A stretch of 30,590 nucleotides of DNA from a virus, in the IMG/VR virus record IMGVR_UViG_3300044858_005202, positions 1-30,590 of that record; one strand, given 5' to 3'. This document shows, in pieces, positions 7,597 through 28,594 of this stretch. Made by a program: the position numbers and the translations under genes. Position 1 is the first letter of the stretch; each line of letters starts with the position of its first letter. The notes beneath the pieces are model-generated. The model saw only the letters and a list, made by a program, of their open reading frames with translations. It was not told the DNA's origin and made no database searches.

Positions 7597-7762
7597 CAAC
7601 CGCGGGCGACCGCTGGATGGCTGGCACTGCACTCAGTGCGAAACAAAGATTGACGACAAGGTAATGGAGGGCTATCCGGCTACGATTGACCCAAAATATA
7701 AGAAGGCAACATGCCATAAGTGCAGGAAGGTGAAGGTTATTAAGAAATGGGATCAAAAGTAA
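7568..7762 (+). CDS. Zinc-ribbon protein (64 aa)
   Basis: AAGGAG at 7555-7560 lies 7 bases ahead of ATG 7568. Two knuckles, CTQC (~27-30) and CHKC (~55-58), are separated by about 24 residues, a classical zinc-ribbon spacing; the tail is basic (RKVKVIKKW), which would suit nucleic-acid binding. No specific family. The 3' end overlaps the protease gene by 16 bases, so the two are translated from the same message. Confidence 0.7.
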   Translation: MADAKNLVVDNRGRPLDGWHCTQCETKIDDKVMEGYPATIDPKYKKATCHKCRKVKVIKKWDQK

Positions 7763-8688
7763 GGGCTATTGCGATATTTATCGCAGCTGTTTTATTCATA
7801 TCTGCTCCCGGAGCGGTTGACGCAAGACAAAAAAGATCTAAGAACGTTTACCGAGTTAAATACACCTACAGCAGTTCGCTTGGATACAAATGGGCGCAAG
7901 ATAGAATCAACCAAGGGTACACCACTAGGCTTGACGGCAAGGCCCCTACTCCCAACAGCTATGGATCTGGAATTGATGTCTACATTGTTGATAGCGGCGT
8001 CGGCGCAGAAGACTGTGCAAACCACGGTTCAATGGTGGCAAGCGTTGTCAGCAATTCAAGCATTGGGATCGCTACTGGAGTTAACATTATTAGCGTTAAG
8101 GTTCTGGACTGCAAGGGCGAGACCACAGAGGAGAATTTGGTCAACGCAATCAACTCCATCAAGGAAACAGCGGTTCCTAGCAGGTCAGTGGTTAATATCA
8201 GCATTGGCGGAGCTAAGAGTGCCGCAGTTGATGCAGCAGCCAGCAGCCTCGGGTTGATGATGCCGGTTGTTGTTGCGGCTGGAAATGAGTTTACTGATGC
8301 ATGCAAAACAAGTCCAGCTGGTGCAAGCAATGTAATCACTGTTGGAGGAGTTGATAAATACCATTACATGGCATGGTTCTCAAACCACGGTCAGTGTGTT
8401 GATATTTGGGCTCCCGGTAAAAGCGTGGACGCGATTGACAAGAATGGCGCTTCACGAAAGATAAGCGGAACAAGCATATCTGCGCCGCTCGTAACTGCAG
8501 CGATTGCATGGGTTGCAGATAGGGATAATTCAACAACTATGGAGGCTGCGCTTACTGTATTCAGGGAGAGCAGTGATGCTCCAGTTATGACGCCGTATCA
8601 CAGCGGAGGAAAGAAGCCGTTCTCGCTGTGGATTCGGGATGTGCCAGTAAACTGGATTAGAACCGACTACCCGACTTCGCTGCCGTAA
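7747..8688 (+). CDS. Secreted subtilisin-like serine protease, S8 family (313 aa)
   Basis: A signal peptide (~1-26: basic MGSKVR, hydrophobic AIAIFIAAVLFISA, AVDA cleavage region) leads directly into the mature domain. The catalytic triad is complete: D82 in VYIVDSGVG, H93 in ANHGSMVASV, S243 in SGTSISAP, with the oxyanion N180 in VVAAGNE. WAQDRI before the Asp motif resembles the proteinase K branch. Only ~25 residues separate signal and catalytic domain, so the usual I9 propeptide chaperone is absent. Cys 90, 122, 186 and 217 may form disulfides. An exported protease could act on host surface proteins or in lysis, which is inference. The 3' end converges with and overlaps the terminase gene by 32 bases. 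Confidence 0.92.
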   Translation: MGSKVRAIAIFIAAVLFISAPGAVDARQKRSKNVYRVKYTYSSSLGYKWAQDRINQGYTTRLDGKAPTPNSYGSGIDVYIVDSGVGAEDCANHGSMVASVVSNSSIGIATGVNIISVKVLDCKGETTEENLVNAINSIKETAVPSRSVVNISIGGAKSAAVDAAASSLGLMMPVVVAAGNEFTDACKTSPAGASNVITVGGVDKYHYMAWFSNHGQCVDIWAPGKSVDAIDKNGASRKISGTSISAPLVTAAIAWVADRDNSTTMEAALTVFRESSDAPVMTPYHSGGKKPFSLWIRDVPVNWIRTDYPTSLP

Positions 8689-11718: not shown

Positions 11719-13497
11719 GTGAAGGTCCTGACCAGTCTAACGCTTAGCAGCTTCCTAGACCTACAGAAGAATGAGTTGCGCAATGCTGCCATTCAGGTTC
11801 TTGCCACCCCGCCGTCCTCGCCTGTCACGGGTCAGATCTATTACAACTCAGACTCAAATGACGGCCCAATTGGCATCATGGTCTACAACGGAACTCTTTG
11901 GGAGTCCGTTGGATCAATTGACGGCCTTTCAGGAACGGCTCCAATCAGCGTTAGCGTTTCTGGTGGCGTTGCAACAATCAGCATCTCGGCGGCAGACGGC
12001 ACGAACCCAGGTTCAATGTCTGCTGCGCACTACACGCTGGTCAATAACGCCACTGATGCAAACACCGCAAGCACAATCGTCAAGCGCGATGCATCGGGGA
12101 ACTTCACCGCTGGGACCGTTAGCGCAACAAGCGTAACTATCTCTGGCGCGGTAACCAACGCAACTGACGCAGCGACCAAGGCATACGTAGACGGCGTAGC
12201 ATCTGGACTTGATGTCAAGGCATCGGTCCGAGTTGCCACAACTGCAAACATTGCACTTGCCACTGCTCTTGAAAACGGCGACGCAATTGACGGGATTACG
12301 CTTGCCACTGGCGACCGCGTCCTTGTTAAGAATCAGTCAACTGGTTCCGAGAATGGTATTTACGTTGTTCAGTCTTCTGGCGCGGCAGTTCGCTCAAGCG
12401 ATGCCGACGTAAGCGCAGAGGTAACCCCAGGCCTATTTACCTTCGTTGAAGAGGGAACAGCAAACGGGAACACGGGTTGGGTTCTTACCACCGATGGAAC
12501 AATTACACTTGGAACAACCGCGCTTGTATTTACGCAGTTCTCTGGGTCTGGCGCAGTTACTGGCGGCGCTGGACTCACCCTCACTGGAACTGACCTTGCG
12601 GTCAACGTTGATGACTCAACCATTGAGATTGCCTCTGACACCCTTCGCGTCAAGGACGCCGGGATTACTGCAGCAAAGCTTGCAACCAGCGCTGTTGATG
12701 TCTCAACCTCAACAGTAACTGGAACTCTTCCAGTTGCCAAGGGTGGTACTGGGGCAACAACTGCCTCTGACAACACCGTCTTCGCCGGTCCTGCAACTGG
12801 TGGTCCTTCTGCCCCCTCATTCCGATCACTTGTTGCTTCGGACATTCCAAGCCACGGCACTGATAAGCTCACGAGCGGCACGCTTGGCGTTGAGCGCGGC
12901 GGCACTGGTGCCGCAACATTCACTGCTGGTATCGTCAAGTCGTCTGGCGGAACTAATGCGCTAACGACCGCAAGCACGATTGCCCTTGGAAGCGAAGTCT
13001 CTGGCACGCTGCCAGTTGCAAACGGTGGTACTGGAGCAAGCACCCTGACATCTGGTGGCGTACTGCTCGGCAACGGGACAAGCACCATCGGAGCAACCTC
13101 TGCGGGAACTGCCAATCAGGTCCTTCGGGTTCCGGGCGCTGGTGGATCACCAGCCTTTGGCGCTATTGACCTTACGCAGTCTGCTGCCGTCACTGGCGCG
13201 CTGCCAATCGCAAATGGTGGTACTGGTCAGACTACTGCGTCCGCTGCCCTTGCGGCACTTGGCGGAACGTCAAAGTACACCGCGCAACTTGGAGATGGAT
13301 CGGCAACGACATACACGATCTCTCACGGTCTTGGAAATATTTGGGTAACCGCCGAAGTGTTCCAGACCTCTAATGGTGAGAAGGTCTACCCAGATATCAC
13401 TGTGGGACTGACCACGGGAACCCCGAACGGCACCGTTGTCCTAGACTTCTCCCAGGCGCCAAGCAACAACCAGTACAGGGTTGTTATAATCGGGTAA
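11719..13497 (+). CDS. Long tail fibre protein with GGTG repeats (592 aa)
   Basis: GTG 11719 has GAGGAG 6 bases upstream. The N-terminus contains a PSSPVTGQIYYNSD...YNGTLWESVG module also found in the genes at 13519 and 13928. Residues ~110-285 hold a widely distributed fibre domain (NATDANTASTIVKRDASGNF, AYVDGVASGLDVKASVRVAT, GDRVLVKNQSTGSENGIY, GLFTFVEEG, FTQFSGSG). Then come repeats of the form GTLPVAxGGTGxxT (about four), typical of trimeric fibre shafts. The last 80 residues (YTISHGLGNIWVTAEVFQTS...YRVVIIG) form a probable tip. Sits in the adhesin operon between short fibre genes. Confidence 0.85.
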   Translation: MKVLTSLTLSSFLDLQKNELRNAAIQVLATPPSSPVTGQIYYNSDSNDGPIGIMVYNGTLWESVGSIDGLSGTAPISVSVSGGVATISISAADGTNPGSMSAAHYTLVNNATDANTASTIVKRDASGNFTAGTVSATSVTISGAVTNATDAATKAYVDGVASGLDVKASVRVATTANIALATALENGDAIDGITLATGDRVLVKNQSTGSENGIYVVQSSGAAVRSSDADVSAEVTPGLFTFVEEGTANGNTGWVLTTDGTITLGTTALVFTQFSGSGAVTGGAGLTLTGTDLAVNVDDSTIEIASDTLRVKDAGITAAKLATSAVDVSTSTVTGTLPVAKGGTGATTASDNTVFAGPATGGPSAPSFRSLVASDIPSHGTDKLTSGTLGVERGGTGAATFTAGIVKSSGGTNALTTASTIALGSEVSGTLPVANGGTGASTLTSGGVLLGNGTSTIGATSAGTANQVLRVPGAGGSPAFGAIDLTQSAAVTGALPIANGGTGQTTASAALAALGGTSKYTAQLGDGSATTYTISHGLGNIWVTAEVFQTSNGEKVYPDITVGLTTGTPNGTVVLDFSQAPSNNQYRVVIIG

Positions 13498-13927: not shown

Positions 13928-15658
13928 TTGGCAACGAGGATTATTCTAAGGAAAGATACGTCGGCAAACTGGGCCTCAGCAGACCCAGTGCTTGCCAATG
14001 GGGAGATTGGCTATGACACGACCATTGACAGGCTCAAGGTCGGGGACGGCTCTACGGTATGGACCTCTCTGCCGTTTGTCACAAATGTAAGCCTTGCGAG
14101 CGGCTCTGATGCTGGTCTACTATCTGCTGCTGGGTACAACGACATCAATGGTGCCACTGACGCAAACACGGCAAGTAAAATTGTTAAACGCGATGCAAGC
14201 GGTAACTTTTCAGTAAACCTTATTACTGCCAGCGGAACCCCAAGTAGCGCGGGTCACTTGACCACAAAGTCATATGTGGACGCCGTAGTCAACGGGCTGG
14301 ATGTTAAGGCAAGCGTTCGCGTTGCAACTACCGAAAATTCCGACCTGTCTGGTCTTGACACAATTGACGGCGTAACCGTGGCTTCTGGAGACCGTATCCT
14401 TGTCAAGAATCAAACAACGGCTTCGGAAAATGGTGTTTATCTTGCTGCCGCAGGCTCGTGGTCTCGAGCAACCGACTGCGACGTAAGTGCAGAGGTTACA
14501 TCTGGTCTGTTTACATTTGTTTCTGAGGGCTCTGTAAATGCGGACTCTGCATGGGTGCTTACCACAAACGACCCGATCACTGTTGGCAGCACTTCGCTTG
14601 CATTTACCCAGTTCTCTGGCGCTGGGCAAATCAACGCTGGGGTTGCGCTAACAAAGAACGGCAACACCCTTGATGTTGACCTGATAGATTCAACTTCAAG
14701 CACATCCACAAGCGCCGCTGCAACTCCATCTAGCGTTAAATCTGCATACGATCTTGCGGCAACAAAAGCGAAGGTGACAAGGCAGGCAAGTGCCCCGTCT
14801 AGCCCAGCAAATGGTGACATCTGGATTGAGTCAGACAACAATAACCTTGGCTATGTGTACGACTCAGCAACAACTTCTTGGATTACCATCAAAGGCGACC
14901 TTCCGCCAGACGCAACAACAACCGTCAAGGGTATCGTTATGCTTTCAAGCGCAATAGATTCTACAAATGAAACCAAATCAGCAACACCATTTGCCGTAAA
15001 AAGCGCATATGACCTTGCGGCAAATGCATATATCATTGCGGGAAACGCAGAAACCGCCGCGAATGCCGCGGCAGCAGTAGCCCCAACCAATGTCGTCACG
15101 GCAAAGGGCGACCTAATTGCTGGGACTGCAAACGCTGCAATAGACAACCTTCCAGTTGGGGCAAACAATACAGTTCTGATTGCAGATTCAGCACAGACAA
15201 TGGGCATGAGGTGGGGCTCATCTCTTTCAGGTGCAACCCTTGACGGGTCTACGTTTACCGGGGCGTCTACGTTTACCGGGGCTATCGTTGCTCAGGAGCT
15301 GAGCGAAACCGTTGTTCCAGTTACCCTCGCAACCAACGTGGGCACAATGGTGTGGACCGATGGGAATATTTTCTACATTGCCACCGCCCCGACTGGCGCA
15401 ATGACATTTAACGTAACGGGGGTTCCAGAAACTGTTAACAGGATTCAGACGGTAAACGTGTTTGTGACTCAGGGTGCGACTGGATACATTCCTTCTACGT
15501 TCCAGATTGGCGGAGCCAGCCAAACCATTAGGTGGTCAGGTGGAAGTGCGCCAACCCCAACCTCATCTGTTGGAAAAATTGACATCTTTAGCTTTACTAT
15601 GCAGCGCACAGCCTCCGCCGCATGGATTGTCTACGGGTCCTCATCGCTTAACTTCTAG
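13928..15658 (+). CDS. Long tail fibre protein with Mtd-N-like head (576 aa)
   Basis: TTG 13928 follows GAGGGG at 6 bases. The N-terminus (RKDTSANWASADPVLANGEIGYD...LKVGDGSTVWTSLPF) is the tail-fibre entry domain seen in many phages. Residues ~75-240 repeat the TDANTAS...VKASVRVAT...LVKNQTTASENGVY...FTQFSGAG domain of the fibre at 11719, at roughly half identity by eye. Then follow SSVKSAYDLA and FAVKSAYDLA units, the PSSPANGDIWIESD module, TAKGDLIAGTANAAIDNLP, a duplicated STFTGA, and a C-terminal beta domain. Typical mosaic trimeric fibre. No catalytic motif seen. Confidence 0.85.
   Translation: MATRIILRKDTSANWASADPVLANGEIGYDTTIDRLKVGDGSTVWTSLPFVTNVSLASGSDAGLLSAAGYNDINGATDANTASKIVKRDASGNFSVNLITASGTPSSAGHLTTKSYVDAVVNGLDVKASVRVATTENSDLSGLDTIDGVTVASGDRILVKNQTTASENGVYLAAAGSWSRATDCDVSAEVTSGLFTFVSEGSVNADSAWVLTTNDPITVGSTSLAFTQFSGAGQINAGVALTKNGNTLDVDLIDSTSSTSTSAAATPSSVKSAYDLAATKAKVTRQASAPSSPANGDIWIESDNNNLGYVYDSATTSWITIKGDLPPDATTTVKGIVMLSSAIDSTNETKSATPFAVKSAYDLAANAYIIAGNAETAANAAAAVAPTNVVTAKGDLIAGTANAAIDNLPVGANNTVLIADSAQTMGMRWGSSLSGATLDGSTFTGASTFTGAIVAQELSETVVPVTLATNVGTMVWTDGNIFYIATAPTGAMTFNVTGVPETVNRIQTVNVFVTQGATGYIPSTFQIGGASQTIRWSGGSAPTPTSSVGKIDIFSFTMQRTASAAWIVYGSSSLNF
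15248..15282 (+). repeat. 18-bp tandem duplication in fibre gene
   Basis: TCTACGTTTACCGGGGCG at 15248-15265 is repeated at 15266-15282 apart from the last base, encoding STFTGA twice. Identical DNA points to a recent duplication. Confidence 0.85.
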
Positions 15659-15664
15659 GCCATC

Positions 15665-16546
15665 ATGCCATTTATAAGCAGCGTCAGGGGATCATTTGGT
15701 CCGCAAGGGAGATTCGGCAGGAGAGCGGGTCTTTCTGGTTCAACGGGCGGAACCTACACGGAGGCTGGCGGGTACGGGATTCACACCTTTAATTCCGTAG
15801 GAAGTTTTTCATTCGTATCTGCTGGCGTTGGGACAGTAGAATATATTGTTGTTGCTGGCGGCGGCGGCGGCGGAACAGACCAAGGGGATGCAGGCGCTGG
15901 TGGCGGTGGTGGTGCTGGCGGATTTATCTCAGGAAATCTCGCCGTAACCGCAACCACATATTCCATTACCGTTGGAGACGGCGGTGCTGGAGCACCAGTA
16001 AATGCTGGGACAGCAGGCATCAGGGGAACAAGTGGGTCAAACACGGTATTCTCCTCATTCACGGCGATTGGAGGGGGTGGCGGGGGTTCAACCCAGGGGA
16101 ACATTGCCGGATTGAGCGGTGGCTCTGGCGGTGGGGGGGCAGCGCAAAGCGGTTCTGCTGGCGGCGGGACTGCGGGGCAAGGAAATTCTGGTGGCACAGG
16201 GGGTCAGTCAGGTTATGGCGGCGGCGGTGGAGGAGGGGCAACACAGGCCGGAGGAAACAACACCAACGGCTCATCCAGTGGCACCTCACACTTTGGTGGA
16301 AATGGTGCGAGCTCGTCTATTTCTGGTACATCTCAAACATATGCTGGCGGTGGTGGCGGCGGATCTCGCAACGGTGTAGGAAGCGGTGGAGCGGGTGGCT
16401 CTGGTGGCGGTGGAGCCGGCGGCGCTGGGAGCAATGGATCGGCTGCAACGTACTTTGGAGGCGGCGGTGGCGCTGGGGGAACCTCAAGCAGCTGGACTGG
16501 CGGCAACGGCCACAGGGGAATTGTAATCGTAAGGTATGCGATATAA
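15665..16546 (+). CDS. Glycine-rich adhesin / fibre tip protein (293 aa)
   Basis: After a short basic start comes a beta strand region (YGIHTFNSVGSFSFVSAGVGTVEYIVVAGGGGGG) that is the usual entry to phage glycine-rich domains. About 200 residues of Gly-rich loops follow (GGGGGAGG, GDGGAG, GGGGGG, GGSGGGGAAQ), ending in NGHRGIVIVRYAI. Such polyglycine sandwich domains form receptor-binding tips in some T-even-like phages (gp38-type), a role inferred here. The overlapping Pro-rich minus-strand ORFs are composition shadows. A second gene of this class lies at 20202. SD weak; ATG 15665 is 4 bases after the previous stop. Confidence 0.75.
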   Translation: MPFISSVRGSFGPQGRFGRRAGLSGSTGGTYTEAGGYGIHTFNSVGSFSFVSAGVGTVEYIVVAGGGGGGTDQGDAGAGGGGGAGGFISGNLAVTATTYSITVGDGGAGAPVNAGTAGIRGTSGSNTVFSSFTAIGGGGGGSTQGNIAGLSGGSGGGGAAQSGSAGGGTAGQGNSGGTGGQSGYGGGGGGGATQAGGNNTNGSSSGTSHFGGNGASSSISGTSQTYAGGGGGGSRNGVGSGGAGGSGGGGAGGAGSNGSAATYFGGGGGAGGTSSSWTGGNGHRGIVIVRYAI

Positions 16547-16555: not shown

Positions 16556-16930
16556 ATGCCCCAGTTCAAAACAACGAAAAACATTTTTGTTGATCCGTGG
16601 AACGATGAGCTATTTGATGAAAACTGGATGAACTCCGAATCGGTTTCCTTGCCCCCCAAAAAAGATTGGGACTACAAAAAGGAAATTCGCATTGAGGATG
16701 TTGATATCTGGGAGGTTATCTATCAGCAGGGGGGCGGTCTGGGGCTTTATGCGTCTTGGTCCCCGTATGCCGAGTTCTACCTTATTACAAAAGGATTGCA
16801 GGGAGTAGAGACGTTTTATGGCAAGAAGTCGGGAGAGCTTGCATACAAAAGAGCAAAAGAACTGGGAATGCAAGTCTCCCTAAGCAAGGTGTGGGTTGAA
16901 GATAGCGATATGTGGCTATACAGGGATTAA
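16556..16930 (+). CDS. Hypothetical protein with GLYASWSPYAEFYLI motif (124 aa)
   Basis: A cytoplasmic-type protein with Trp-rich N-terminal half (VDPWNDELFDENWMN), a central DIWEVIYQQGGGLGLYASWSP segment and a helical C-terminus ending in WVEDSDMWLYRD. I recall similar GGGLGxYASWxPxAEF sequences in uncharacterised proteins of marine and freshwater phages, but no function is known to me. It has its own leaderless-type promoter and faces the oxygenase gene; the two stop codons share bases 16927-16930, so transcripts converge. Confidence 0.65.
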   Translation: MPQFKTTKNIFVDPWNDELFDENWMNSESVSLPPKKDWDYKKEIRIEDVDIWEVIYQQGGGLGLYASWSPYAEFYLITKGLQGVETFYGKKSGELAYKRAKELGMQVSLSKVWVEDSDMWLYRD

Positions 16931-17463
16931 GGTTTTTTGTTCCACTCAAAGTAGTTAAAGTTAATTACAACCCTATTCTTTGTGTCCGTGGAACTTGATC
17001 CCGTATGTGCCATATGTGGGTCAAAAACAAGTAGCCTGCCAGCAACCGACTCAACCTTAGTGCCGTCTTCAAAGAGCGTATACCCGTTATTGCTGTTCAA
17101 ATAGAAAACCGCACTTTTGCCTGAGTGATTTGTCGTTCCGCCGAGCCCGTAATCAGTATGCATCCCGTACTCAATAATTTCTGGGGTTGCTGGCGTCAGG
17201 TTTGCCTTGATACGAATGATCGCCGCAGGTTCAATCGCTTCTAGGATTGGGTTTAAGACCTCTGCGTACTGACTTGATGGCGCATGGTTGCTATAGAAGT
17301 TGTGAATAAACTGGAAATTATATAATTCACGAGAGCTTTCAAGGTGAAGGTCCTTTTTAACCTTGTGGTGCAGGTACCAAGGGAAATCCGCACCCAACAT
17401 AACGCCCTGTATGGACTCAAGGGCAGAACGACCGATAAGATTGTCAATAACCTGATAAGACAT
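16927..17463 (-). CDS. 2OG-Fe(II) dioxygenase-like protein (178 aa)
   Basis: The facial triad is visible: H102-x-D104 in GMHTDYGLGG and a distal His (H153 in PHMAHTGSSS; H150 is an alternative), with R164 in NRVVINFNYF as the likely 2-oxoglutarate binder. Strands AAIIRIKANL, AVFYLNSNNGYTLF and GRLLVFDPH complete the double-stranded beta helix. Length is typical for small phage-encoded oxygenases, many of which resemble prolyl hydroxylases. The substrate is unknown; its position within a fibre operon suggests modification of a virion or host surface component, which is speculation. AAGGAGG sits 6 bases before the ATG at 17463 and a good promoter precedes it. Confidence 0.85.
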   Translation of the reverse strand: MSYQVIDNLIGRSALESIQGVMLGADFPWYLHHKVKKDLHLESSRELYNFQFIHNFYSNHAPSSQYAEVLNPILEAIEPAAIIRIKANLTPATPEIIEYGMHTDYGLGGTTNHSGKSAVFYLNSNNGYTLFEDGTKVESVAGRLLVFDPHMAHTGSSSTDTKNRVVINFNYFEWNKKP

Positions 17464-18078: not shown

Positions 18079-20202
18079 ATGGCAAGGACAGAAAAGAAGT
18101 TTGGTCAACTTACGCAACCGGCTGCAAACACGCTGCATGAGATTGTTCCAACATCCAGCAACCGAAGAAATGTCCTGCTCAATGTTACTGGACGCGCAAA
18201 CTCATTTATTACCGCAATCACCGCAACCGCTCCGATAACATTTAATCCAACATCAGTGACGACAGGGCTTGCATCTCAAACTGGGGTTGCAATTACAACC
18301 ACTGGCGGCAACCCCAGCTACTATAGGGGCATTGGGCTAAACCCAGCAAAGAACACCTTTGTTCTTATTGCATATAACAGCAATCAACAGCCTGGGGTAG
18401 TTGGCATTAGCGCAACCGGGCCGACATCTGTTACTACCACTAGCGCGTCGGCAATTAATTACTCTGGTCAGGTCCAGTGGTACAACGCAGATTCAAGCTT
18501 CAGCTCCAACGGTCAACTCTGGACAGCGTCAAGCGGATCGTATTTTCTTACCTACCCAATTGTTGTTCTTGATGACACGTGGGCAATGATTTATTACTGG
18601 GGAAACACTGGCGCTACGTCTGACTACCGCACGGCAATATTTAGGTACAATGCCGGCGGCAGCCCAACGCCAGTTGGGTATAACGCATCACCAACAAGCG
18701 CAACACATCAGTACACCGGTGCTTCCACTTGGCAAGTTGCTGGCGTTTGGCAGATTAGACCAGGCACCACCGCGAACGGTGTGGGGATGCATATGTGGCA
18801 CCACGCTGGATCTGGTCAGGCAATTGGCTCGAGTGCGGTCGGTATGAGAATCTTTAGGGGCGGGGCCCAAACAGCGACCGCGTTCTGGGCAACAACGGCA
18901 AACAGTTCAAATCAAACTGGAACAAAACTTGCAAATTTCTGGCAGGACATTGAATTTAATGCTATCCATAACATATACGCAATAACAAACCCAACACTAA
19001 CCGCCGCGGACTCTTGGCACGGTGTGGCTTCTTCTGGTGGGACGATTGGAACCGATGGAATTTTGCCGCCAGCTGAAAACGCTAAGTTTGGATTTAGGTT
19101 TGTTGCTGCAACCTCTGGGGGCACAGACACCGCAGAGTTCCTGAAGGGTGCAATTACATACCCATCTGGAACGCCTACAACACTCGTCCCAACTGGGGTT
19201 GACAAGCCAATCTCTCAAATGCGATGGAGCCCAGACGGCACTCGCCTTGCAGTTATGTTCAACCGATCGCACAGCAACACGGTTTCTTTGAGCGTAACCT
19301 CAAGACGCATTGTAAGCAATGTGGCGACACTTACGCTCAATATTGGAAACCTTGCAAGCCATACCTATGTTGCTGGGGATTCAATTACCGTTTCAAGCGT
19401 TGCCTCACCGTTTAATGGTACTTTTACAGTTACGGCAGTAACATCAAATACTGTATCGTATGCACTAACAAACGCAGACATCGCAGCGACATCATCAACG
19501 GGCTCAGTGTCTGCGACAAAAACAAACAATCTCACCAACAGCGTGATAGCAATTTATACGCGTCAAAATGATGGTAGCTACATTGAAACGCATCAAAGCG
19601 GATCAACCATAAGCTTCTCAGCAAATCCACTTCCAAGTGGTCTCGCGTGGAACGGCGAATCAAATATCCTGGCAGTGACTGGGATAAATGCTGGCATATG
19701 GCTCTGGTATTTTGGCGGAACTTCCATTTCAAGGAGCACGGTAACCTCCGCTAGCGGGTGGACGGTGACCGCCCCGAACCCACAGGTTACATCTATGACC
19801 GCTCCAACCACGGGTGCAAACACCACGATTACCGGCCCAACGTTTATTACGCCAACAGCGCAAGCTTCGTACCTAGGGTATAACCGTTATCCTTCGGTTG
19901 TAGAATTCTTGCCAGTCGCTGGAGCCGTCTCGGATCTTCTATACATTGTAAGAGATACTTTGGGCATGAGCGACCAGAGAGATTTCACAAGCACGTGGCA
20001 AAACGTAAACAACCTTGGCGGATACTCTGGAACCGCAACAATTTCAAACTATGTAAACACGATAGCGCAATCTCTACCGGTTTCGTCTGGCAACGTAACG
20101 CAGTTGTCAAATATTGTTCTTGAGTCTGGTGAACGACTTTATGTTGAGCCAACAGTTTCAAACGCAGTAGACGCAGTTGCATATGGGGTTGAAATCACCT
20201 AA
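18079..20202 (+). CDS. Large virion adhesin with propeller-like repeats (707 aa)
   Basis: AAGGAG at 18066-18071, 7 bases before ATG 18079. The N-terminal ~60 residues look like an attachment domain. Repeats with the WD40/TolB-like signature appear (GIGLNPAKNTFVLIAY, ISQMRWSPDGTRLAVMF, GLAWNGESNILAVTG), suggesting a beta-propeller. Residues ~405-485 are an Ig-like module (IVSNVATLTL...FNGTFTVTAV...YALTNADI) that also occurs twice in the protein at 22288. The C-terminal ~90 residues end in SNIVLESGERLYVEPTVSNAVDAVAYGVEI, a motif I associate with phage structural proteins. Ends in TAATG overlap with the glycine-rich gene. Exact ligand unknown. Confidence 0.7.
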   Translation: MARTEKKFGQLTQPAANTLHEIVPTSSNRRNVLLNVTGRANSFITAITATAPITFNPTSVTTGLASQTGVAITTTGGNPSYYRGIGLNPAKNTFVLIAYNSNQQPGVVGISATGPTSVTTTSASAINYSGQVQWYNADSSFSSNGQLWTASSGSYFLTYPIVVLDDTWAMIYYWGNTGATSDYRTAIFRYNAGGSPTPVGYNASPTSATHQYTGASTWQVAGVWQIRPGTTANGVGMHMWHHAGSGQAIGSSAVGMRIFRGGAQTATAFWATTANSSNQTGTKLANFWQDIEFNAIHNIYAITNPTLTAADSWHGVASSGGTIGTDGILPPAENAKFGFRFVAATSGGTDTAEFLKGAITYPSGTPTTLVPTGVDKPISQMRWSPDGTRLAVMFNRSHSNTVSLSVTSRRIVSNVATLTLNIGNLASHTYVAGDSITVSSVASPFNGTFTVTAVTSNTVSYALTNADIAATSSTGSVSATKTNNLTNSVIAIYTRQNDGSYIETHQSGSTISFSANPLPSGLAWNGESNILAVTGINAGIWLWYFGGTSISRSTVTSASGWTVTAPNPQVTSMTAPTTGANTTITGPTFITPTAQASYLGYNRYPSVVEFLPVAGAVSDLLYIVRDTLGMSDQRDFTSTWQNVNNLGGYSGTATISNYVNTIAQSLPVSSGNVTQLSNIVLESGERLYVEPTVSNAVDAVAYGVEIT

Positions 20203-21137
20203 TGGCGATTACAAGCGTTAGAAAAACATCCATTATTCTTGACGAGTTTACCTCGTCTGGAATTTGGTATAAGCCATCTGGAGCCGTGCAGGTGACCGTG
20301 GAGGTTGTGGGCGGAGGCGGCGGTGGCGCTGGCGGAGCGTGGACATCTAGCACCACAAGCGCGCAGAGCCCGTGGCTTGGCGGGCAGGGGGGAGAATCGT
20401 ACTATGGAACATTCGTGGACCCGGATGCACTGCCAGAGACCGTTGCTATTCTAATTGGCAATGGTGGAAATGGTGGGGCTGCCCCAGCAACAATTGATAA
20501 CAATCCTAGCGCTGGCGGTGCTGGGACCTCAAGTTCATTCGGCAGCATCCTTGTTGCTGGGGGGGCTGGTGGAACGTCAAGCAGCCCAGCAGCCGCGCAA
20601 AGAAACTGGCCATTCGTATGGCCATATGTTGCAACCGGGTATCCAGCACTTCCGCCATCAGTAGTTCCTGGAGCAAGCGGTAGCGTCTCAGTGGGATACG
20701 GGGGGTATAGAAACGAGATCGGCGGCGGTGGTGGTGGCACTGGCGGGTACTGGTACAGCACTAGCGCTGCCACCTACTCTCCTGCAACCGCAGGCGGAAA
20801 AAGAGAAGCGATTTCTGGATACCTCTGGAGATATGGCGGGGAGGCAACCTTCAATGGCGGTGGCGGTGCGGGCGGTGCTGGCAACGGAAGCACAATTGCC
20901 TCAGCCGCTGGAACCGCTGGCACTGCTGGGTCTGGGGGCGGCGGTGGCGCTGCCGCAAACAAGGGCTCTGCGGGGGTGATAGACTGGAATGGCAAGCCTG
21001 GTGGAAATGGTGGCGTTCCAGGGGGAGGCGGCGGCAGCGCTGGTTCCAGCTTCACATCGGCTGCAACATCTCGAGGTTCTGGCGGCAATGGCGGAGCCGG
21101 AAGGGTTCGCGTTTGGACCCTAGTGGCTGGTAAATAG
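20202..21137 (+). CDS. Glycine-rich adhesin / fibre tip protein (311 aa)
   Basis: ATG 20202 shares its A with the previous stop. The start (TSSGIWYKPSGAVQVTVEVVGGGGGGAGGAW in parts) is the standard entry of glycine-rich phage tip domains. About 250 residues of Gly clusters separated by short aromatic and Asn/Ser loops follow, closing with GGAGRVRVWTLVAGK. It is the second protein of this class after 15665 but differs in the N-terminus and loop sequences, so the pair may recognise different surface ligands. A receptor-binding role is inferred from known polyglycine tips. Confidence 0.75.
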   Translation: MAITSVRKTSIILDEFTSSGIWYKPSGAVQVTVEVVGGGGGGAGGAWTSSTTSAQSPWLGGQGGESYYGTFVDPDALPETVAILIGNGGNGGAAPATIDNNPSAGGAGTSSSFGSILVAGGAGGTSSSPAAAQRNWPFVWPYVATGYPALPPSVVPGASGSVSVGYGGYRNEIGGGGGGTGGYWYSTSAATYSPATAGGKREAISGYLWRYGGEATFNGGGGAGGAGNGSTIASAAGTAGTAGSGGGGGAAANKGSAGVIDWNGKPGGNGGVPGGGGGSAGSSFTSAATSRGSGGNGGAGRVRVWTLVAGK

Positions 21138-22287: not shown

Positions 22288-24222
22288 ATGGCAGAGTTGA
22301 TTGATCTAGGTAAGTTGCGCTTTGACTTTAAGGGCGCATACGCTGGCGGCACCACCTATGAGCGCAATGACGTTGTTATCTATCAGGGCAGCGCCTATGT
22401 CTACAAGAACGCCACCTCCGCGGCTGGGAACGTTCCAACCAATGCGACCTATTGGGACAAGATGTCTCAAGGTGTCAACATTGGTGGCGGAGACTCAGGA
22501 AAGCTGCTTACCAACAATGGAACTGATTATGCTTGGACGGCAACACCAGAGGTAACGTCACTTACAACTGTTGGCGATGCAACAATTGGAGATCAGGCAC
22601 TTGTTGGTTCGGGAGCGACAGCCCTTGCCGCAACGCTGACCAACCCAAAGGTTGTCATAAAAACCAGCGCATCTGACTATGCGCAGGTTGCATTCCAGAA
22701 TGCAGGCGACACCGCAGACTCATCCACCGACTTTATTGCGTATGCAAACAATGGAACCGATGACGCTGGCTGGATTGACATGGGCATCACGTCAGGAAGC
22801 TTTAACGACGAAGAGTTCACCATCACCGGACCACACGACGGCTACATCTTTATGGAAGCGCCAGCGGGGACATCGGGCTCGGGAAATCTTGTTCTTGCCA
22901 CTGGGGCAAACGGGACAGAAAACAAGATTGTGTTTGCCGCTGGTGGACTAAGCAGCGACAACACGCAAATGATTATCATTCCCGACCAAAATATTCACAT
23001 TGAGATTCCAACCGCATCAACAAGCCCAACCACCGGCGCGCTTACTGTCGTGGGTGGCGTTGGCATTCAAGGCGACGTAAATATTCAGGGGACCATTGCA
23101 TTTGGTGGCGCTGGAACAACCGTAGAAACTGATAACCTTTCTGTCAGCGAGCCAATGATTTTCGTTGCCAACGCAAACCCAGCAAACTCACTTGACCTTG
23201 GTATTGTTGGCGAAGCGTATGTAACAACCACACTTGACCCAGTTGCAAGCATTACAACAAAGGCAATCGCAAGCAATGTGGCAACACTTGGTGTGACCTA
23301 CGGTGGGGGGGCCGAGCCAGTTCAGGTTGGGGACACCATCGTTGTAACCGATGTTGACGCAACGTTCAACGGAACATACACCGTTACAGCAAGGACGGGC
23401 TCTACGGTCTCTTATGCCAAGACTAATGCAAACATCACGCAAACTGCCGCAACTTCTGCACTTGCAAAAACTGTAACAACTAAGGCGCTTACCTCAAACA
23501 TTGCAACGCTTACCACTGACGTGACGCATACATTTATTGCTGGAGAGCAGGTGGTTGTTGCTGGGGTGGATGCAACGTTTAACGGCACATATACCATTTT
23601 GGCAACTCCAACTACGACAACCTTTACCTATGCAAAAACCGCCTCAGACGTCACGTCCGCCGCATCTGGTGGCGGAACTGCGACGGTAGAAAAGCTTCTT
23701 GGGTTTGTCAACGCTACCGATGTATCGCGAACTAGGTACTCGGGGTTTGTAAAAGATGCAAGCGACGGAAAGTGGAAGCTTTTTGACGGCATTAATACAA
23801 AGCCAACAACCACGGTAAATTTCGGACAGGCTGGCGTCACCTATGGGTCGCTTAAGGTTGGTGCACTTGAGGCCGATAGCGTTCTTATCAATGGAGCCGC
23901 CCCAGCAAGCGAGGCATTCGTAAACAACCAACTTGGTCTTTCGTGGCAGGTGAAAACAGCAAATTATACGCTTGCGTCTGGGGATAACATTTTTGCAGAC
24001 TCAACCGCAGGATCGTTTACGCTGACACTTCCAGCGTCACCAGCGACAAACACCCGAGCACGCATTCACGACGTCGCCGGTAAGTGGAACACGTTCCCAG
24101 TTGTTATTGCAAGAAACGGACAGTTGATTCAGGGCGTTGCGGAAAACCTCAACCTTAACGTGCAGTACGCAACCGTTGAGCTATTCTATGCTGGCTCCTC
24201 ATATGGTTGGAGAGTCGTGTAA
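22288..24222 (+). CDS. Tail fibre with carbohydrate-binding-like head and two Ig-like inserts (644 aa)
   Basis: The N-terminus (FDFKGAYAGGTTYERNDVVIY, SAYVYKNATSAAGNVPTNATYWDKM) resembles small CBM5/12-type modules in phage fibres. The middle (TGALTVVGGVGIQGDVNIQG, TTVETDNLSVSEPMIFVAN, SGFVKDASDGKWKLFDGI, TTTVNFGQAGV) is a module I recall from cyanophage-like structural proteins. Two copies of an Ig-like module (~23245-23460 and 23470-23690) sit inside that middle domain. The C-terminus (NIFADSTAGSFTLTLPASP...VVIARNGQLIQG...GWRVV) is a common fibre tip. No catalytic motif. Ends in TAATG overlap with the first of three paralogues. Confidence 0.8.
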   Translation: MAELIDLGKLRFDFKGAYAGGTTYERNDVVIYQGSAYVYKNATSAAGNVPTNATYWDKMSQGVNIGGGDSGKLLTNNGTDYAWTATPEVTSLTTVGDATIGDQALVGSGATALAATLTNPKVVIKTSASDYAQVAFQNAGDTADSSTDFIAYANNGTDDAGWIDMGITSGSFNDEEFTITGPHDGYIFMEAPAGTSGSGNLVLATGANGTENKIVFAAGGLSSDNTQMIIIPDQNIHIEIPTASTSPTTGALTVVGGVGIQGDVNIQGTIAFGGAGTTVETDNLSVSEPMIFVANANPANSLDLGIVGEAYVTTTLDPVASITTKAIASNVATLGVTYGGGAEPVQVGDTIVVTDVDATFNGTYTVTARTGSTVSYAKTNANITQTAATSALAKTVTTKALTSNIATLTTDVTHTFIAGEQVVVAGVDATFNGTYTILATPTTTTFTYAKTASDVTSAASGGGTATVEKLLGFVNATDVSRTRYSGFVKDASDGKWKLFDGINTKPTTTVNFGQAGVTYGSLKVGALEADSVLINGAAPASEAFVNNQLGLSWQVKTANYTLASGDNIFADSTAGSFTLTLPASPATNTRARIHDVAGKWNTFPVVIARNGQLIQGVAENLNLNVQYATVELFYAGSSYGWRVV

Positions 24223-25553
24223 TGGCAAATATCTATAGGCTTATAGACCCCAAGGGGTTAGATCCCCTTCCAACATTTGCCACGTGGGATAACACGGGTG
24301 GCGGGATCTATGACAGCTATGGCGGGCACGTTGCCGACTACACCATTTCTGGAAACTCTGAGTTTACTAATAACGGAAACATTGTTTCCTCTATTACAAG
24401 TCAGGCAAGCAGCAACTCAAGGACTACGGGCTGGCCAAGCTTTACCTGCGCCAATCAGGCAGAGGGAAACTGGACGATCAACCCGCCTGGGATGGGCGGG
24501 TTTGGAACTGGATACCGAAGAGAAGACCGCGTGCAGCTTGTGTGGCCAGATTACGGAACTGTCATTGGAAATTCTGGGATTCGCCAACGCATCTCCATCC
24601 ATGCCAACGGAAACGTAATTTCAGTGTATGCAAGAGGAAGCCTTCTTCCTTATGAGTCGCTCACCACAAACACGTCCACATACAGGAATATTATTGGCGA
24701 GCCCGGAACCAACTGCAGGGGCATGATTTCATACAACGACAGGACAAGAACGCTTGCGTATATGGTTTCGGACAGCTCGCTGAACTATCGAGTGCACGTA
24801 TGGAGGCACCCGCAGGTTTCGCTGAATGAATTGTCATACAAGACTGGTCAGTTGTACAAGTTTTTGACTGAAGCAAAAAGCGCAACGAATGGCGCTTCAT
24901 ATTATTACAACGATTTTGCATTTTCATCAAGCAGCGCCAGCAGCTATACCGAATCTATGCACCACATAAGAATCGTCATGGGCGATAACGGAACCCTTGG
25001 GCTTATTCGGTTTACGCCAAGCAACCAAACAATACATCGTTACGCAGTGCTTAATCCTTCGGGAACTTCTATCACCGGAACTGTAACAGCTGTTTCGGAC
25101 AACACGGTAACGACATCCTACGGGATTGAGCAGGGCGGTTACTACGGAATGCGATCAAATATCACGTGGGACAACCTGTGGGTTGTCGCCTATGCGCCGT
25201 ACTATTACTACGGCACTGGGTTTGCTTCTCACTTCGTCTACACCCCAGACCCCTCAAAGGGATATAAGTTTCTGAACTCAAACACCTCCACTGGCTGCCA
25301 GGTTGTTCCGGTTCAGGAAGGACAATTTCTTTTCCGTCAATCTGACAATACCGACAGCGGGGCTGGCGTGTCCGTGTCGTCCATAGATCCGACTGGGGCT
25401 TTTGTTAACGAGCGCAACGCAAGCGGTGCCGCAATTTCTAATGGCGGAACCCTAGTGGCGTCAAGCGCAGCGAATAGCTACGACGTGTTTAACACGAGTA
25501 CTGCGTATGTGCCCCTGATCCCAATGGGAAGCTGGTACGGCGGAGGGAGATAA
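24222..25553 (+). CDS. Paralogue 1 of a tandem adhesin-like family (443 aa)
   Basis: First of three adjacent homologues. Shared features: an N-terminal DPLPTF motif, a middle SxxTGEPGTxxxGxxSYNxRTR segment, then GASYYYNDFAFSSS, HHIRIVMGDNGTLGLIRFTPSNQ, TTSYGIEQGGYYGMR, WVVAYAPYYYYGTG, DPSKGYKF, and a C-terminal STAYVPLIPMGSWYGG. It is rich in Tyr, Ser and Thr, mostly beta, without signal, TM or catalytic motif. I do not recognise the family; as part of the fibre operon it is probably a virion surface protein. It is the most diverged of the three. Its stop overlaps the start of paralogue 2 (TAATG). Confidence 0.7.
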   Translation: MANIYRLIDPKGLDPLPTFATWDNTGGGIYDSYGGHVADYTISGNSEFTNNGNIVSSITSQASSNSRTTGWPSFTCANQAEGNWTINPPGMGGFGTGYRREDRVQLVWPDYGTVIGNSGIRQRISIHANGNVISVYARGSLLPYESLTTNTSTYRNIIGEPGTNCRGMISYNDRTRTLAYMVSDSSLNYRVHVWRHPQVSLNELSYKTGQLYKFLTEAKSATNGASYYYNDFAFSSSSASSYTESMHHIRIVMGDNGTLGLIRFTPSNQTIHRYAVLNPSGTSITGTVTAVSDNTVTTSYGIEQGGYYGMRSNITWDNLWVVAYAPYYYYGTGFASHFVYTPDPSKGYKFLNSNTSTGCQVVPVQEGQFLFRQSDNTDSGAGVSVSSIDPTGAFVNERNASGAAISNGGTLVASSAANSYDVFNTSTAYVPLIPMGSWYGGGR

Positions 25554-26917
25554 TGCCTGCCCTCAACCTTAACGAAATCCTTGACCCAACCGTATACATG
25601 AGCGGGCTTCCGCTTATTGTCCAAATGGAGGGCACTGCTGGCGCAACGGTTAGATCCTCTTCTGGGGACGCGATGTCTTCGTATACATTTACAACCTCAG
25701 AGGGATCAAGCACACTAGCCGGAAGCACCTTCCTAGGGACCACCTCTCTAATTGGCCAGAGCGGCGCCGCCTATATGATTCAATCAACAGCAAACAACAC
25801 CAACGTAGCGTCGTTACTTCAGGACCCAGCTTCATCTTTTTCTGCTAGCAATTCCAACGCAATGACTGGCAGACCAAACCAAGGAACAAGCGTTTATCCC
25901 TACTTTGGGACAACAATTGGCACTATTGGGAAAAGGCAGCGTGCTTCAATCTTTACGAGCGGAACAACAATTCGTATGTATCGTCGCAGCCTACAAACGG
26001 CTGCGGAGTCGTTTACCTTGACCCAGCGAACCACTAGCGGTGAGCCGGGAACCGCCAACTCGGGCCAGACCTCCTACAATGAGCGGACAAACAGACTTAT
26101 TGTGGTAATGAGCGGAACATCTACGTATCGTGTGCATGTTTATACAAATCCGAATATTAACCTGAATAGTTCATCGTATCGGGTTGGCGATTTGTTTAAA
26201 TTTGTAAACGATGCGTTTAGCGGACTTAATGGCGCCTCCTACTTCTACAATGACTTCACATGGAGCACCTCAAACTCAACATCATACACGGAGTCAATTT
26301 CCCACAACAGGTTTATCCTTGGGGACAACAATATTGTCGGCATGTTCCGCATGACTCCAAGTAACCAGTCGGTGGCCGCAAACATGACCCTTAACTCTGG
26401 CTCAACGACAACAACAGTTACACAGTTGTGGACATCCTCGTTGACGACCAGCTACGGCATTGAGCAGGGGGCGCTGTATGGATCAAGAACGCAAAATGAC
26501 TGGGGAAATACATTCGTTGCCGCATACTGCGTGTATTACTATTACGGGTGCGGCATAAAAATTGTGTTCTTCTATGCCGCAGATCCATCTAAGTACTATG
26601 TATACACCTACGACGACACCCAGTCTGGGGTATCTATTGCCCCTCAGGGCGTAGGGGGATTTATGCTTAAAATTAACAGCGCAAACAGTGACGGGGTCGG
26701 CACTCGAGTGTATGCAATAAATCCAAACGACATGAGGGGAACCTCAATCAACATGAACGGCAGTGGTGTTTCAAACGGTGGAACAGTTGGCCTCCTAAAT
26801 CCATACTGGGGTTTTGACCTGTACGGAAGCAGCACCCAATACAACATAGTGCATTCAGCGACCTCTTGGTTTACGCCCATGAAAACGATTTTGCAGCCAA
26901 GAGACATCACAGGGTAG
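25553..26917 (+). CDS. Paralogue 2 of a tandem adhesin-like family (454 aa)
   Basis: GGAGGGAG precedes the ATG at 25553. The N-terminus LNEILDP matches LNEVLNP of paralogue 3. The core GASYFYNDFTWST, SYTESISHNRFILGDNNIVGMFRMTPSNQ, TTSYGIEQGALYGSRT, CVYYYYGCG and ADPSKYY is nearly identical to paralogue 3, and at 26231-26269 the DNA is identical over 39 bases to 27642-27680. Here CxxxxxxxC replaces the Ser/Ala of the others around the YYYYG motif, a possible local disulfide. No known family; probable virion surface protein. Confidence 0.7.
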   Translation: MPALNLNEILDPTVYMSGLPLIVQMEGTAGATVRSSSGDAMSSYTFTTSEGSSTLAGSTFLGTTSLIGQSGAAYMIQSTANNTNVASLLQDPASSFSASNSNAMTGRPNQGTSVYPYFGTTIGTIGKRQRASIFTSGTTIRMYRRSLQTAAESFTLTQRTTSGEPGTANSGQTSYNERTNRLIVVMSGTSTYRVHVYTNPNINLNSSSYRVGDLFKFVNDAFSGLNGASYFYNDFTWSTSNSTSYTESISHNRFILGDNNIVGMFRMTPSNQSVAANMTLNSGSTTTTVTQLWTSSLTTSYGIEQGALYGSRTQNDWGNTFVAAYCVYYYYGCGIKIVFFYAADPSKYYVYTYDDTQSGVSIAPQGVGGFMLKINSANSDGVGTRVYAINPNDMRGTSINMNGSGVSNGGTVGLLNPYWGFDLYGSSTQYNIVHSATSWFTPMKTILQPRDITG

Positions 26918-26927
26918 GTAGCAAGAA

Positions 26928-28304
26928 GTGCCAAATCAACGCCTAAATGAAGTATTGAATCCGTGGGGGTTTGAAGATCCGCTGCCGACATTCGGTGTTT
27001 TGGATGCAAACTCCAACCTAGGCGACCCTTTTGTTGATATATATTGCAGTGATTTTGAAAAGATCGGCAGCGTAAGATTTCAAACTGGCTCCGAGGGCAT
27101 GCAGGCCTTTGGCGTATCCATTAGAACCGACGCCCAGGTTAGCACGAACTCAGGCGCCGGCATAGCAAACGGAACCAATGCAAACCACTCAGAGGGAAAT
27201 GTGTGGCTTGACATTCCGGCGACACCGGGACGAGCGGTTCCAATCCCGAGCAACAGTAGTAAGGCCATAATTCAGGCGTATTACGGAACGGTCATTGAGC
27301 GACGTGGCGTTCGCCCAAAAATCTCCCTAGCCGCATTTGACGCATCGTGGCTGTATCTATTTGCTCGGGGCGGTCAGCAAATACTTGACCTTGTATTCAC
27401 TACGACCTGGAGAAACACAACGGGAGAACCAGCAGGAGCGGAGTGTTATGGGCAAATCTCGTACAACATAAGAACGCGCAAGTTGTTGATGGTGTATGGG
27501 GACAACTCCAACAATTATCGCGCTCACGTATGGACATTTACGCCAAGCCAGAATTTCAACAAAACGGTTCTTGGCGAGGCTGCCGCACCTAGGACTGGAT
27601 GGGCGTATTATGACCTTGCCAATGCGTATAACGGATCAAGCGGCGCCTCCTACTTCTACAATGACTTCACATGGAGCACCACGGGCTCCTCGTCGTACAC
27701 GGAATCTAGGAAGCATAATAAGTTTGTCCTTGGCGACAATGACGTTGTCGGCATGTTCCGCATGACTCCAAGCAATCAGGCGGTAGTTGCAAACCTTACG
27801 CTGAACCCCTCGGGGACAACTGCCACAGTGACGGCGCTCACCACCATGACCGCTACAACGTCATATGGAATTGAGCAGGGTGTTCTTTTTGGCTCTAGGA
27901 CAATGCACACGTGGGATAACGAATGGATGGCTTGCTATTCCCCGTATTACTATTACGGGGCTGGGATCAACATGGTCATCTTTAACACAAAAGACCCAAG
28001 CAAGTACTACACCTATCAGCTTCAGGACAGTGCGAACGGGGTTGGTCTTGCCCCGATTGGCGAGAGCAAGTTCATTATTCGCGCACAGCAAAATTCAGAT
28101 GGTGGAAATGGTGTAACATTTGGTATTATTGACCCAGCGGGGCCCTTCTATTATGGTAGGGGTCCAGCTGGAGAAGCGATTGCGAATGGCGCAGCGCTTC
28201 CAGTCACATATGGCGGAATTGGAATGATTGATAGTTATTATACGTCAACAAACTATCCGCAGATTATCCCAATGCAAAATTGGGTTGGAGGTACAGGTTC
28301 ATGA
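26928..28304 (+). CDS. Paralogue 3 of a tandem adhesin-like family (458 aa)
   Basis: GTG 26928 begins MPNQRLNEVLNPWGFEDPLPTF, combining N-terminal features of both other copies. The core GASYFYNDFTWST, HNKFVLGDNDVVGMFRMTPSNQAVVANLTLN, TTSYGIEQGVLFGSRT, SPYYYYGAG and KDPSKYYTY matches paralogue 2. The C-terminus STNYPQIIPMQNWVGG matches paralogue 1. The SD is weak. The stop overlaps the next start by ATGA. Function unknown; the triplet in one operon suggests either three copies on one structure or diversified binding specificities. Confidence 0.7.
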   Translation: MPNQRLNEVLNPWGFEDPLPTFGVLDANSNLGDPFVDIYCSDFEKIGSVRFQTGSEGMQAFGVSIRTDAQVSTNSGAGIANGTNANHSEGNVWLDIPATPGRAVPIPSNSSKAIIQAYYGTVIERRGVRPKISLAAFDASWLYLFARGGQQILDLVFTTTWRNTTGEPAGAECYGQISYNIRTRKLLMVYGDNSNNYRAHVWTFTPSQNFNKTVLGEAAAPRTGWAYYDLANAYNGSSGASYFYNDFTWSTTGSSSYTESRKHNKFVLGDNDVVGMFRMTPSNQAVVANLTLNPSGTTATVTALTTMTATTSYGIEQGVLFGSRTMHTWDNEWMACYSPYYYYGAGINMVIFNTKDPSKYYTYQLQDSANGVGLAPIGESKFIIRAQQNSDGGNGVTFGIIDPAGPFYYGRGPAGEAIANGAALPVTYGGIGMIDSYYTSTNYPQIIPMQNWVGGTGS

Positions 28305-28594
28305 GAAACGGTTTTTTCACGGAAATAGGTAATTGGGTCTGGGACGAAAATGGCGATCTTCGCACCCCAGTTGATTCAAATCTTGGGCATCGGTTCTATC
28401 TTGAGGACGGCGAGGTCAAGGATCGCTATAATGGCGTTTCCGATAACAGCGTCCGAGAGATTGATCACGAACAGGCAATGGAGCGCAACGTCGCTGAGAT
28501 TGCTGCGTGGGAAGCGCTTCCAGAGCCAAAGGGGTCGCGACCACCAGATCTTCCGCCACTCGTTCTTCCAGGGGAAGAGCCAGAAGCCGAATAG
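28301..28594 (+). CDS. Small acidic protein behind the paralogue cluster (97 aa)
   Basis: GGAGG at 28287-28291, 9 bases before ATG 28301, which overlaps the previous TGA. The N-terminal part has a short beta motif (FTEIGNWVWDENGDLR, HRFYLEDGEVKDRY), the middle is helical and acidic, and the C-terminus is a Pro/Glu tail (PPLVLPGEEPEAE). Like 21139 it sits directly after large adhesin genes and has an acidic tail, so an assembly-chaperone role is possible. No family recognised. Confidence 0.6.
   Translation: MRNGFFTEIGNWVWDENGDLRTPVDSNLGHRFYLEDGEVKDRYNGVSDNSVREIDHEQAMERNVAEIAAWEALPEPKGSRPPDLPPLVLPGEEPEAE

Follow-up and report, generated by a model that had tools for sequence, protein, structure and literature searches.

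Three tandem genes for predicted beta-propeller adhesins behind a tail-fibre gene ending in an XD1-type domain in an uncultured bacterial virus

In this study, we analysed one virus record of 30,590 bases (the window) from an uncultured bacterial virus and relate three tandem paralogous genes, here called A, B and C, to the tail-fibre shaft gene that precedes them (Table 1). We think it reasonably probable that their products are three alternative fibre-tip adhesins sharing one socket, which would give the phage several receptor specificities. To our knowledge, multiple receptor specificities in phages are understood in detail for few systems, such as T2-type gp38 and the tailspikes of Ackermannviridae. 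A preliminary description of the same DNA had drawn attention to the three genes; the upstream socket domain, the shared N-terminal motif, the downstream partner ORF and the propeller fold were absent from it and are reported here.

Table 1. Positions of the shaft gene, the three predicted adhesin genes and associated features in the window
Feature	Position	Strand	Remarks
Tail-fibre shaft protein, 644 aa	22288..24222	+	C-terminal XD1-type domain, the proposed socket
XD1-type domain, shaft residues ~549-644	23932-24219	+	Profile matches to TSP4/gp34/gp10
Copy A, predicted beta-propeller adhesin, 443 aa	24222..25553	+	Start ATG 24222; N-terminal motif MANIYRLIDP
Copy B, predicted beta-propeller adhesin, 454 aa	25553..26917	+	N-terminal motif LNEILDP; start overlaps A stop
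Copy C, predicted beta-propeller adhesin, 458 aa	26928..28304	+	GTG start; N-terminal motif LNEVLNP
39-base tract of B	26231..26269	+	Identical to 27642-27680 in C; gene-conversion tract
39-base tract of C	27642..27680	+	Identical to 26231-26269 in B
28-base tract of B	26334..26361	+	Identical to 27745-27772 in C
28-base tract of C	27745..27772	+	Identical to 26334-26361 in B
Small partner ORF, 97 aa	28301..28594	+	ATG 28301, ATGA overlap with stop of C

In line with the preliminary description, which had placed tandem paralogues at 24222, 25553 and 26928, the three open reading frames are found there and are 36-41% identical as proteins (A/B 36.4%, A/C 40.7%, B/C 38.7%; 428-437 aligned residues). 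With B as query, C was recovered at E=4e-77 and A at E=3e-74, and their likeness is therefore not due to chance. The ordered motifs that had been listed for them align as described, except that IPMxxWxGG is present only in A and C, the end of B being different. The family had also been called unrecognised and adhesin-like, a view borne out by its tail-fibre context in several phage types and by the searches. Neither A, B, C and ten diverse relatives in PHROGs or Pfam, nor A, B, C and three relatives in NCBIfam, gave a significant match, and the 57-sequence family profile found no PDB chain at E<=10. Among 50,697 phage records, tblastn with B and three different relatives found nothing and C gave chance-level matches only, so that no member is known from the cultured phages; a search of the plasmid collection with A was likewise empty. 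The neck protein of ACG-2014f, considered as a relative at E~8, was rejected as a chance match.

Whole-protein alignments had found a single relative and suggested an orphan family, a reading overturned by a scan with the most conserved 88 residues, which identified 75 environmental phage loci; further members lie on contigs of Tepidimonas thermarum and of a Rhodoferax MAG. In complete loci, almost every member is full length; full-length members occur in more than 70 of the environmental phage loci. Their genes are situated among virion genes, including those for a portal and head protease (locus L025), a tape measure and a DUF4815 protein (L168), a tail sheath (L049), a head closure protein (L065) and fibres (L083). 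We are thus dealing with an unnamed family of predicted propeller adhesins that is common in environmental phages and absent from the reference libraries searched. Members in L167, L168, L022 and L033-L038 are at least 95% identical, lie beside a tape-measure gene and come from two Burkholderiales genomes (Tepidimonas thermarum and the Rhodoferax MAG) and several metagenomes; they represent a widespread phage or prophage of Burkholderiales.

A named protein normally present in three copies, the outcome that the preliminary description had set against its own proposal, was not found, and copy number varies from one (L049, L045 and the L022 group) through two (L013 type) to three (window and L004, L025 type, L068 and L083). 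A related phage, L004 (38,884 bases; terminase 83% identical), is syntenic with the window and retains the same three genes in the same order, with protein identities between orthologues of 82% for A, 64% for B and 74% for C. In a tree of 79 members, the copies of the window and L004 form one clade with L049 (100/98), within which each window copy pairs with its L004 orthologue. Orthology between the third copy in the window and that in the L025 group is rejected (AU p=2e-12), which indicates that three-copy arrays expanded repeatedly; it was not rejected for the position-1 copies of the three-copy lineages (AU p=0.075).

To place the family structurally, we rely on an AlphaFold2 model of copy A built from a 57-sequence alignment (pLDDT 86.1, pTM 0.90), in which the strands occur in successive groups of four. 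All Foldseek matches of this model to the PDB that we inspected were beta-propellers, among them Atg18, DPP8, WD40 proteins, clathrin and a designed 7-bladed protein. The TM-scores were low (0.15-0.42), which indicates that the propeller is unusual and its blade number uncertain; copy A is predicted to have about six blades, a count read from the strand list rather than from coordinates. Sequence conservation peaks in residues 301-340 and is lowest at both ends. Structure prediction, recommended beforehand for each copy, yielded a confident propeller for A and, for B, a first and poor model from six sequences (pLDDT 52) that is also propeller-like. The predicted beta-propeller fold and the tail-fibre context are both strongly supported.

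The gene upstream of A provides the proposed attachment site. As a single sequence, the domain that ends the shaft matched XD1 at E=2e-5, and a profile of ten such shaft-end domains matched XD1 of CBA120 TSP4-N (7rfv, residues 90-174) at E=1.6e-13, the T4-type long-tail-fibre proximal subunit gp34 at 6e-10 and gp10 at 8e-7; no other XD domain was matched in the last 104 residues of the shaft. XD1 has been defined as residues 80-178 of TSP4, a trimeric beta-sandwich that also occurs in gp9 and gp10 (PMC8825819). Of the 50 loci with enough upstream sequence, 39 have the XD1-type domain at the extreme C-terminus of a gene that precedes the adhesins, as a rule with 0-4 residues left after it. This gene lies within about 65 bases of the adhesin in the window, L004, L025, L049, L068, L072 and L083, about 2 kb before it in the L013 type and, exceptionally, at about 5 kb in L065 and L067. 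The XD1 module of TSP4 and of gp10 lies within the protein and does not itself provide the partner-binding surface; in TSP4, linkers extend from both of its faces, for which reason it has been judged incapable of binding a trimeric partner (PMC8825819). At a C-terminus, one face of the domain would be free. The L013-type loci have two further traits, a conserved pair of ORFs of ~108 and 105 aa preceding the first adhesin (e.g. L014 6014-6659) and adhesins with a longer N-terminus (TQIVLPGID...). Given their different N-terminus and the ~2 kb gap to the socket gene, most two-copy phages may attach their adhesins otherwise.

What follows an XD1-ended gene need not belong to this family. Among cultured phages, Pelagibacter phage Mosig encodes a single glycine-rich protein behind the domain, and the cyanophages S-CAM1, S-CAM3, S-SSM7 and Sf-FS3 encode three in tandem; profile comparison rejected the followers in Mosig, Kolga, S-CAM1, S-CAM3, S-SSM7, HTVC023P and CRP-2 as family members. 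Nevertheless, the followers begin alike: MSSLRDLLD in S-CAM1 and S-CAM3, MADLRDFTG in Mosig, MSNLSDFLG in CRP-2, MASLDTLLT in another protein of L014, MASLARLIG in L049, MSNLSNIFG in L083 and MANIYRLID in copy A. The motif was present in 25 of 32 distinct proteins encoded behind the socket gene, compared with 16 of 503 among the remaining ORFs of 200 aa or more; its pattern had been written after seeing these data. At least nine of those 16 are themselves duplicates or tandem copies of the follower adhesins. In S-CAM1, S-CAM3 and L068, the motif occurs in every one of the three tandem proteins. In the window, B and C share the motif core and match only with a longer spacer, one more residue preceding it. 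Copy C of L004 departs from the motif (LDEVFYP), and the tandem proteins of S-SSM7 and Sf-FS3 have a different N-terminus (MANYRSY...). Docking through the N-terminal motif is moderately supported, and the short motif seems to mark an adhesin plugged into the socket, whatever its fold. A parallel is found in phage S16, where gp38 is attached to gp37 through short N-terminal helices (PMC9608196); for the proteins described here, binding by the N-terminal segment is predicted.

The genes are closely coupled. The stop of the shaft gene (22288-24222) overlaps the ATG of copy A (TAATG), and the ATG of copy B overlaps the stop of A likewise; with the overlap at the end of C, this makes it probable that the unit of fibre, A, B, C and small ORF is translated together. 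In virtually all main-clade loci whose sequence extends far enough, homologues of the small ORF (28301-28594) stand behind a family gene, as they do in the Tepidimonas and Rhodoferax contigs. In the main clade they stand behind one copy per locus, or behind two in the L025 type. The ORF had no match in Pfam, PHROG or NCBIfam; it is a conserved partner and possibly an assembly chaperone.

We also examined how the copies have exchanged sequence. The identities of 39 and 28 bases between B and C reported in the preliminary description are exact. In the core of the window's B and C, the same codon is used at 26 of 36 same-residue positions versus 36 of 128 elsewhere (Fisher 2e-6), with up to 14 identical codons in a row (permutation p=5e-5); the DNA identity of B and C exceeds that given by protein conservation. 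For comparison, core codon sharing was 12/38 between window B and L004 C, and 16/40 between window B and its own orthologue. The core excess and the 14-codon run indicate an exchange of a short tract between B and C that postdates the split of the window and L004. In the same region of L004, B and C use the same codon at 22 of 40 positions versus 43 of 129 elsewhere (Fisher p=0.012), the longest run not being significant. Duplication with gene conversion, as originally proposed, is thus supported for B and C of this phage and is suggestive only for its sister phage L004, and with so weak a signal in the latter we do not claim two independent conversion events. The further proposal that C combines A-like ends with a B-like core agrees with trees of separate regions: A, C and L049 join in the N-terminal tree (SH-aLRT 83), while B and C join just after the core (SH-aLRT 98). 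The position of B is less clear in the N- and C-terminal trees, and parts may therefore have been imported from other lineages.

Three other explanations have to be weighed against alternative adhesins. The first is a hetero-oligomeric tip, in which A, B and C would be obligate partners in a single complex, for instance with one copy of each at a trimeric fibre end. In two diverged phages the three genes are strictly retained together and translationally coupled, which is consistent with this, and threes recur behind the socket across unrelated lineages and folds (window, L068/L083, S-CAM1, S-CAM3, S-SSM7, Sf-FS3); L025-type phages also have three copies, and ongoing conversion of the B/C core could keep an interface alike. 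However, the single-copy phage L049 keeps the gene order of the window, with shaft, then adhesin, then small ORF; two-copy members exist as well, and A, B and C diverge most in their N- and C-terminal thirds. Of the two possibilities raised in the preliminary description, hetero-oligomer or alternative specificities, we favour the latter, since single-copy relatives (L049, L045, L022 group) show that the family as a whole can do without an obligate complex of three; we regard such a complex as unlikely.

The second explanation, that the propellers are enzymes, namely glycan-cleaving depolymerases with different substrates, arose from GH43 propeller enzymes among the matches of the first, poor model and from conserved polar residues that include E244, D231, D255 and H192. 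Yet GH43 is absent from the top 50 matches of the better model, for which reason a GH43-like enzyme was dropped, any catalytic triad would be hypothetical and no enzyme family of Pfam or NCBIfam was matched; we consider an enzymatic role very unlikely. It is similarly improbable that the three proteins serve as ordinary components of the shaft or of the virion decoration, have no receptor-binding role and were duplicated by chance: some neighbours in the window bear head-decoration or virion-structural PHROG labels, but the three genes follow the last domain of the fibre, lie distally in the tail modules of several phage types and share a docking-type N-terminus with gp38-like glycine-rich proteins.

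Under the preferred reading, A, B and C would be variants of a single adhesin at the distal end of the tail fibre; each would fold as a beta-propeller with some six blades, and the three would be made together from the coupled operon behind the shaft gene. The docking peptide of each, [LI]xx[LIV][LIVF][DN]P, would plug into the XD1-type domain that ends the trimeric shaft, and the 97-aa ORF behind C would probably help in folding or assembly. Since the three copies each carry a form of this peptide and the genome shows one such socket, different propellers may be displayed on different fibres or at different positions of one trimeric tip. In that case, the phage would carry several receptor specificities, and the fibres of one particle or burst would differ in specificity. 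On this account, all three proteins would be present in the virion, each with a presumed specificity of its own for a receptor that is probably a surface glycan or protein.

Several known systems resemble parts of this arrangement. As with gp38 of the T2/S16 type, a separate adhesin gene lies directly behind the fibre gene; there, N-terminal helices attach to the C-terminal end of the fibre and specificity is exchangeable (PMC12892980, PMC9608196). In contrast to gp38 with its glycine-rich PGII lattice, A, B and C contain 10-11% Gly and are modelled as propellers, they occur in three tandem copies, and the fibre end is XD1-like. Beta-propellers are host-binding modules in phi11 Gp45, PRD1 P2 and phiKZ gp131C (PMC4901313, PMC6115969), a role predicted here for proteins without sequence similarity to any PDB chain; compared with phi11 Gp45, the length of A, B and C leaves no stem and tower, the modelled propeller being closed near both protein ends. 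Several receptor-binding proteins on one appendage are also known from TSP1-4 of the Ackermannviridae phage CBA120, whose XD domains are N-terminal in the tailspike, XD2 and XD3 binding partners (PMC8825819, PMC11414711). The XD1-type domain is homologous to theirs in sequence; unlike in these tailspikes, it forms the C-terminal end of a fibre, the adhesins are predicted propellers, and partner binding through XD2/XD3 has no counterpart in the shaft end, where only the XD1 region was matched. The likeness to S-CAM1, S-CAM3, S-SSM7 and Sf-FS3 lies in a run of three adhesin-like genes that comes immediately after a gene ending in XD1, extends in S-CAM1 and S-CAM3 to the N-terminal motif and ends at the heads, which are unrelated and glycine-rich.

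More tentatively, and at a little less than an even chance, many tailed phages may possess a plug-in slot of this kind, an XD1-ended fibre followed by one to three tandem adhesins that share a docking peptide and carry unrelated heads (beta-propeller, glycine-rich or others). Tandem copies would compete for the socket or share it, conversion and head exchange would refresh the set, and one virion would bear a mixed host-binding set. Should this be borne out, the socket and the motif alone could suffice to predict adhesins in uncultured phages, and mixed versus hetero-oligomeric tips would become directly testable.

Other genes of the window deserve mention. Two glycine-rich proteins of 311 and 293 aa with PHROG tail labels are encoded in the same fibre region (20202-21137 and 15665-16546), and both glycine-rich and propeller adhesins seem to be present in this phage. 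A 707-aa protein (18079-20202), 87% identical in L004 and found nowhere else in the viral contigs searched, contains repeats that resemble propeller blades (e.g. MRWSPDGTRLAV); it was rejected as a relative of the tandem family, there being no detectable profile link. Upstream of the adhesins lies a tandem pair of related fibre- or decoration-like proteins (11719-13497 and 13928-15658), both matching phrog_2647, 27782 and 30390. A gene for a subtilisin-like (S8) protease with a signal-like N-terminus (7747-8688) adjoins the terminase on the opposite strand and is conserved in L004 (L010 6045-7076). Inside the fibre cluster, the minus-strand ORF 16927-17463 is labelled DNA endonuclease V by PHROG, yet it shows a match to 2OG-Fe(II) oxygenase as well, together with an HxD motif; Mosig has several 2OG-Fe(II)-type oxygenases beside its fibre.
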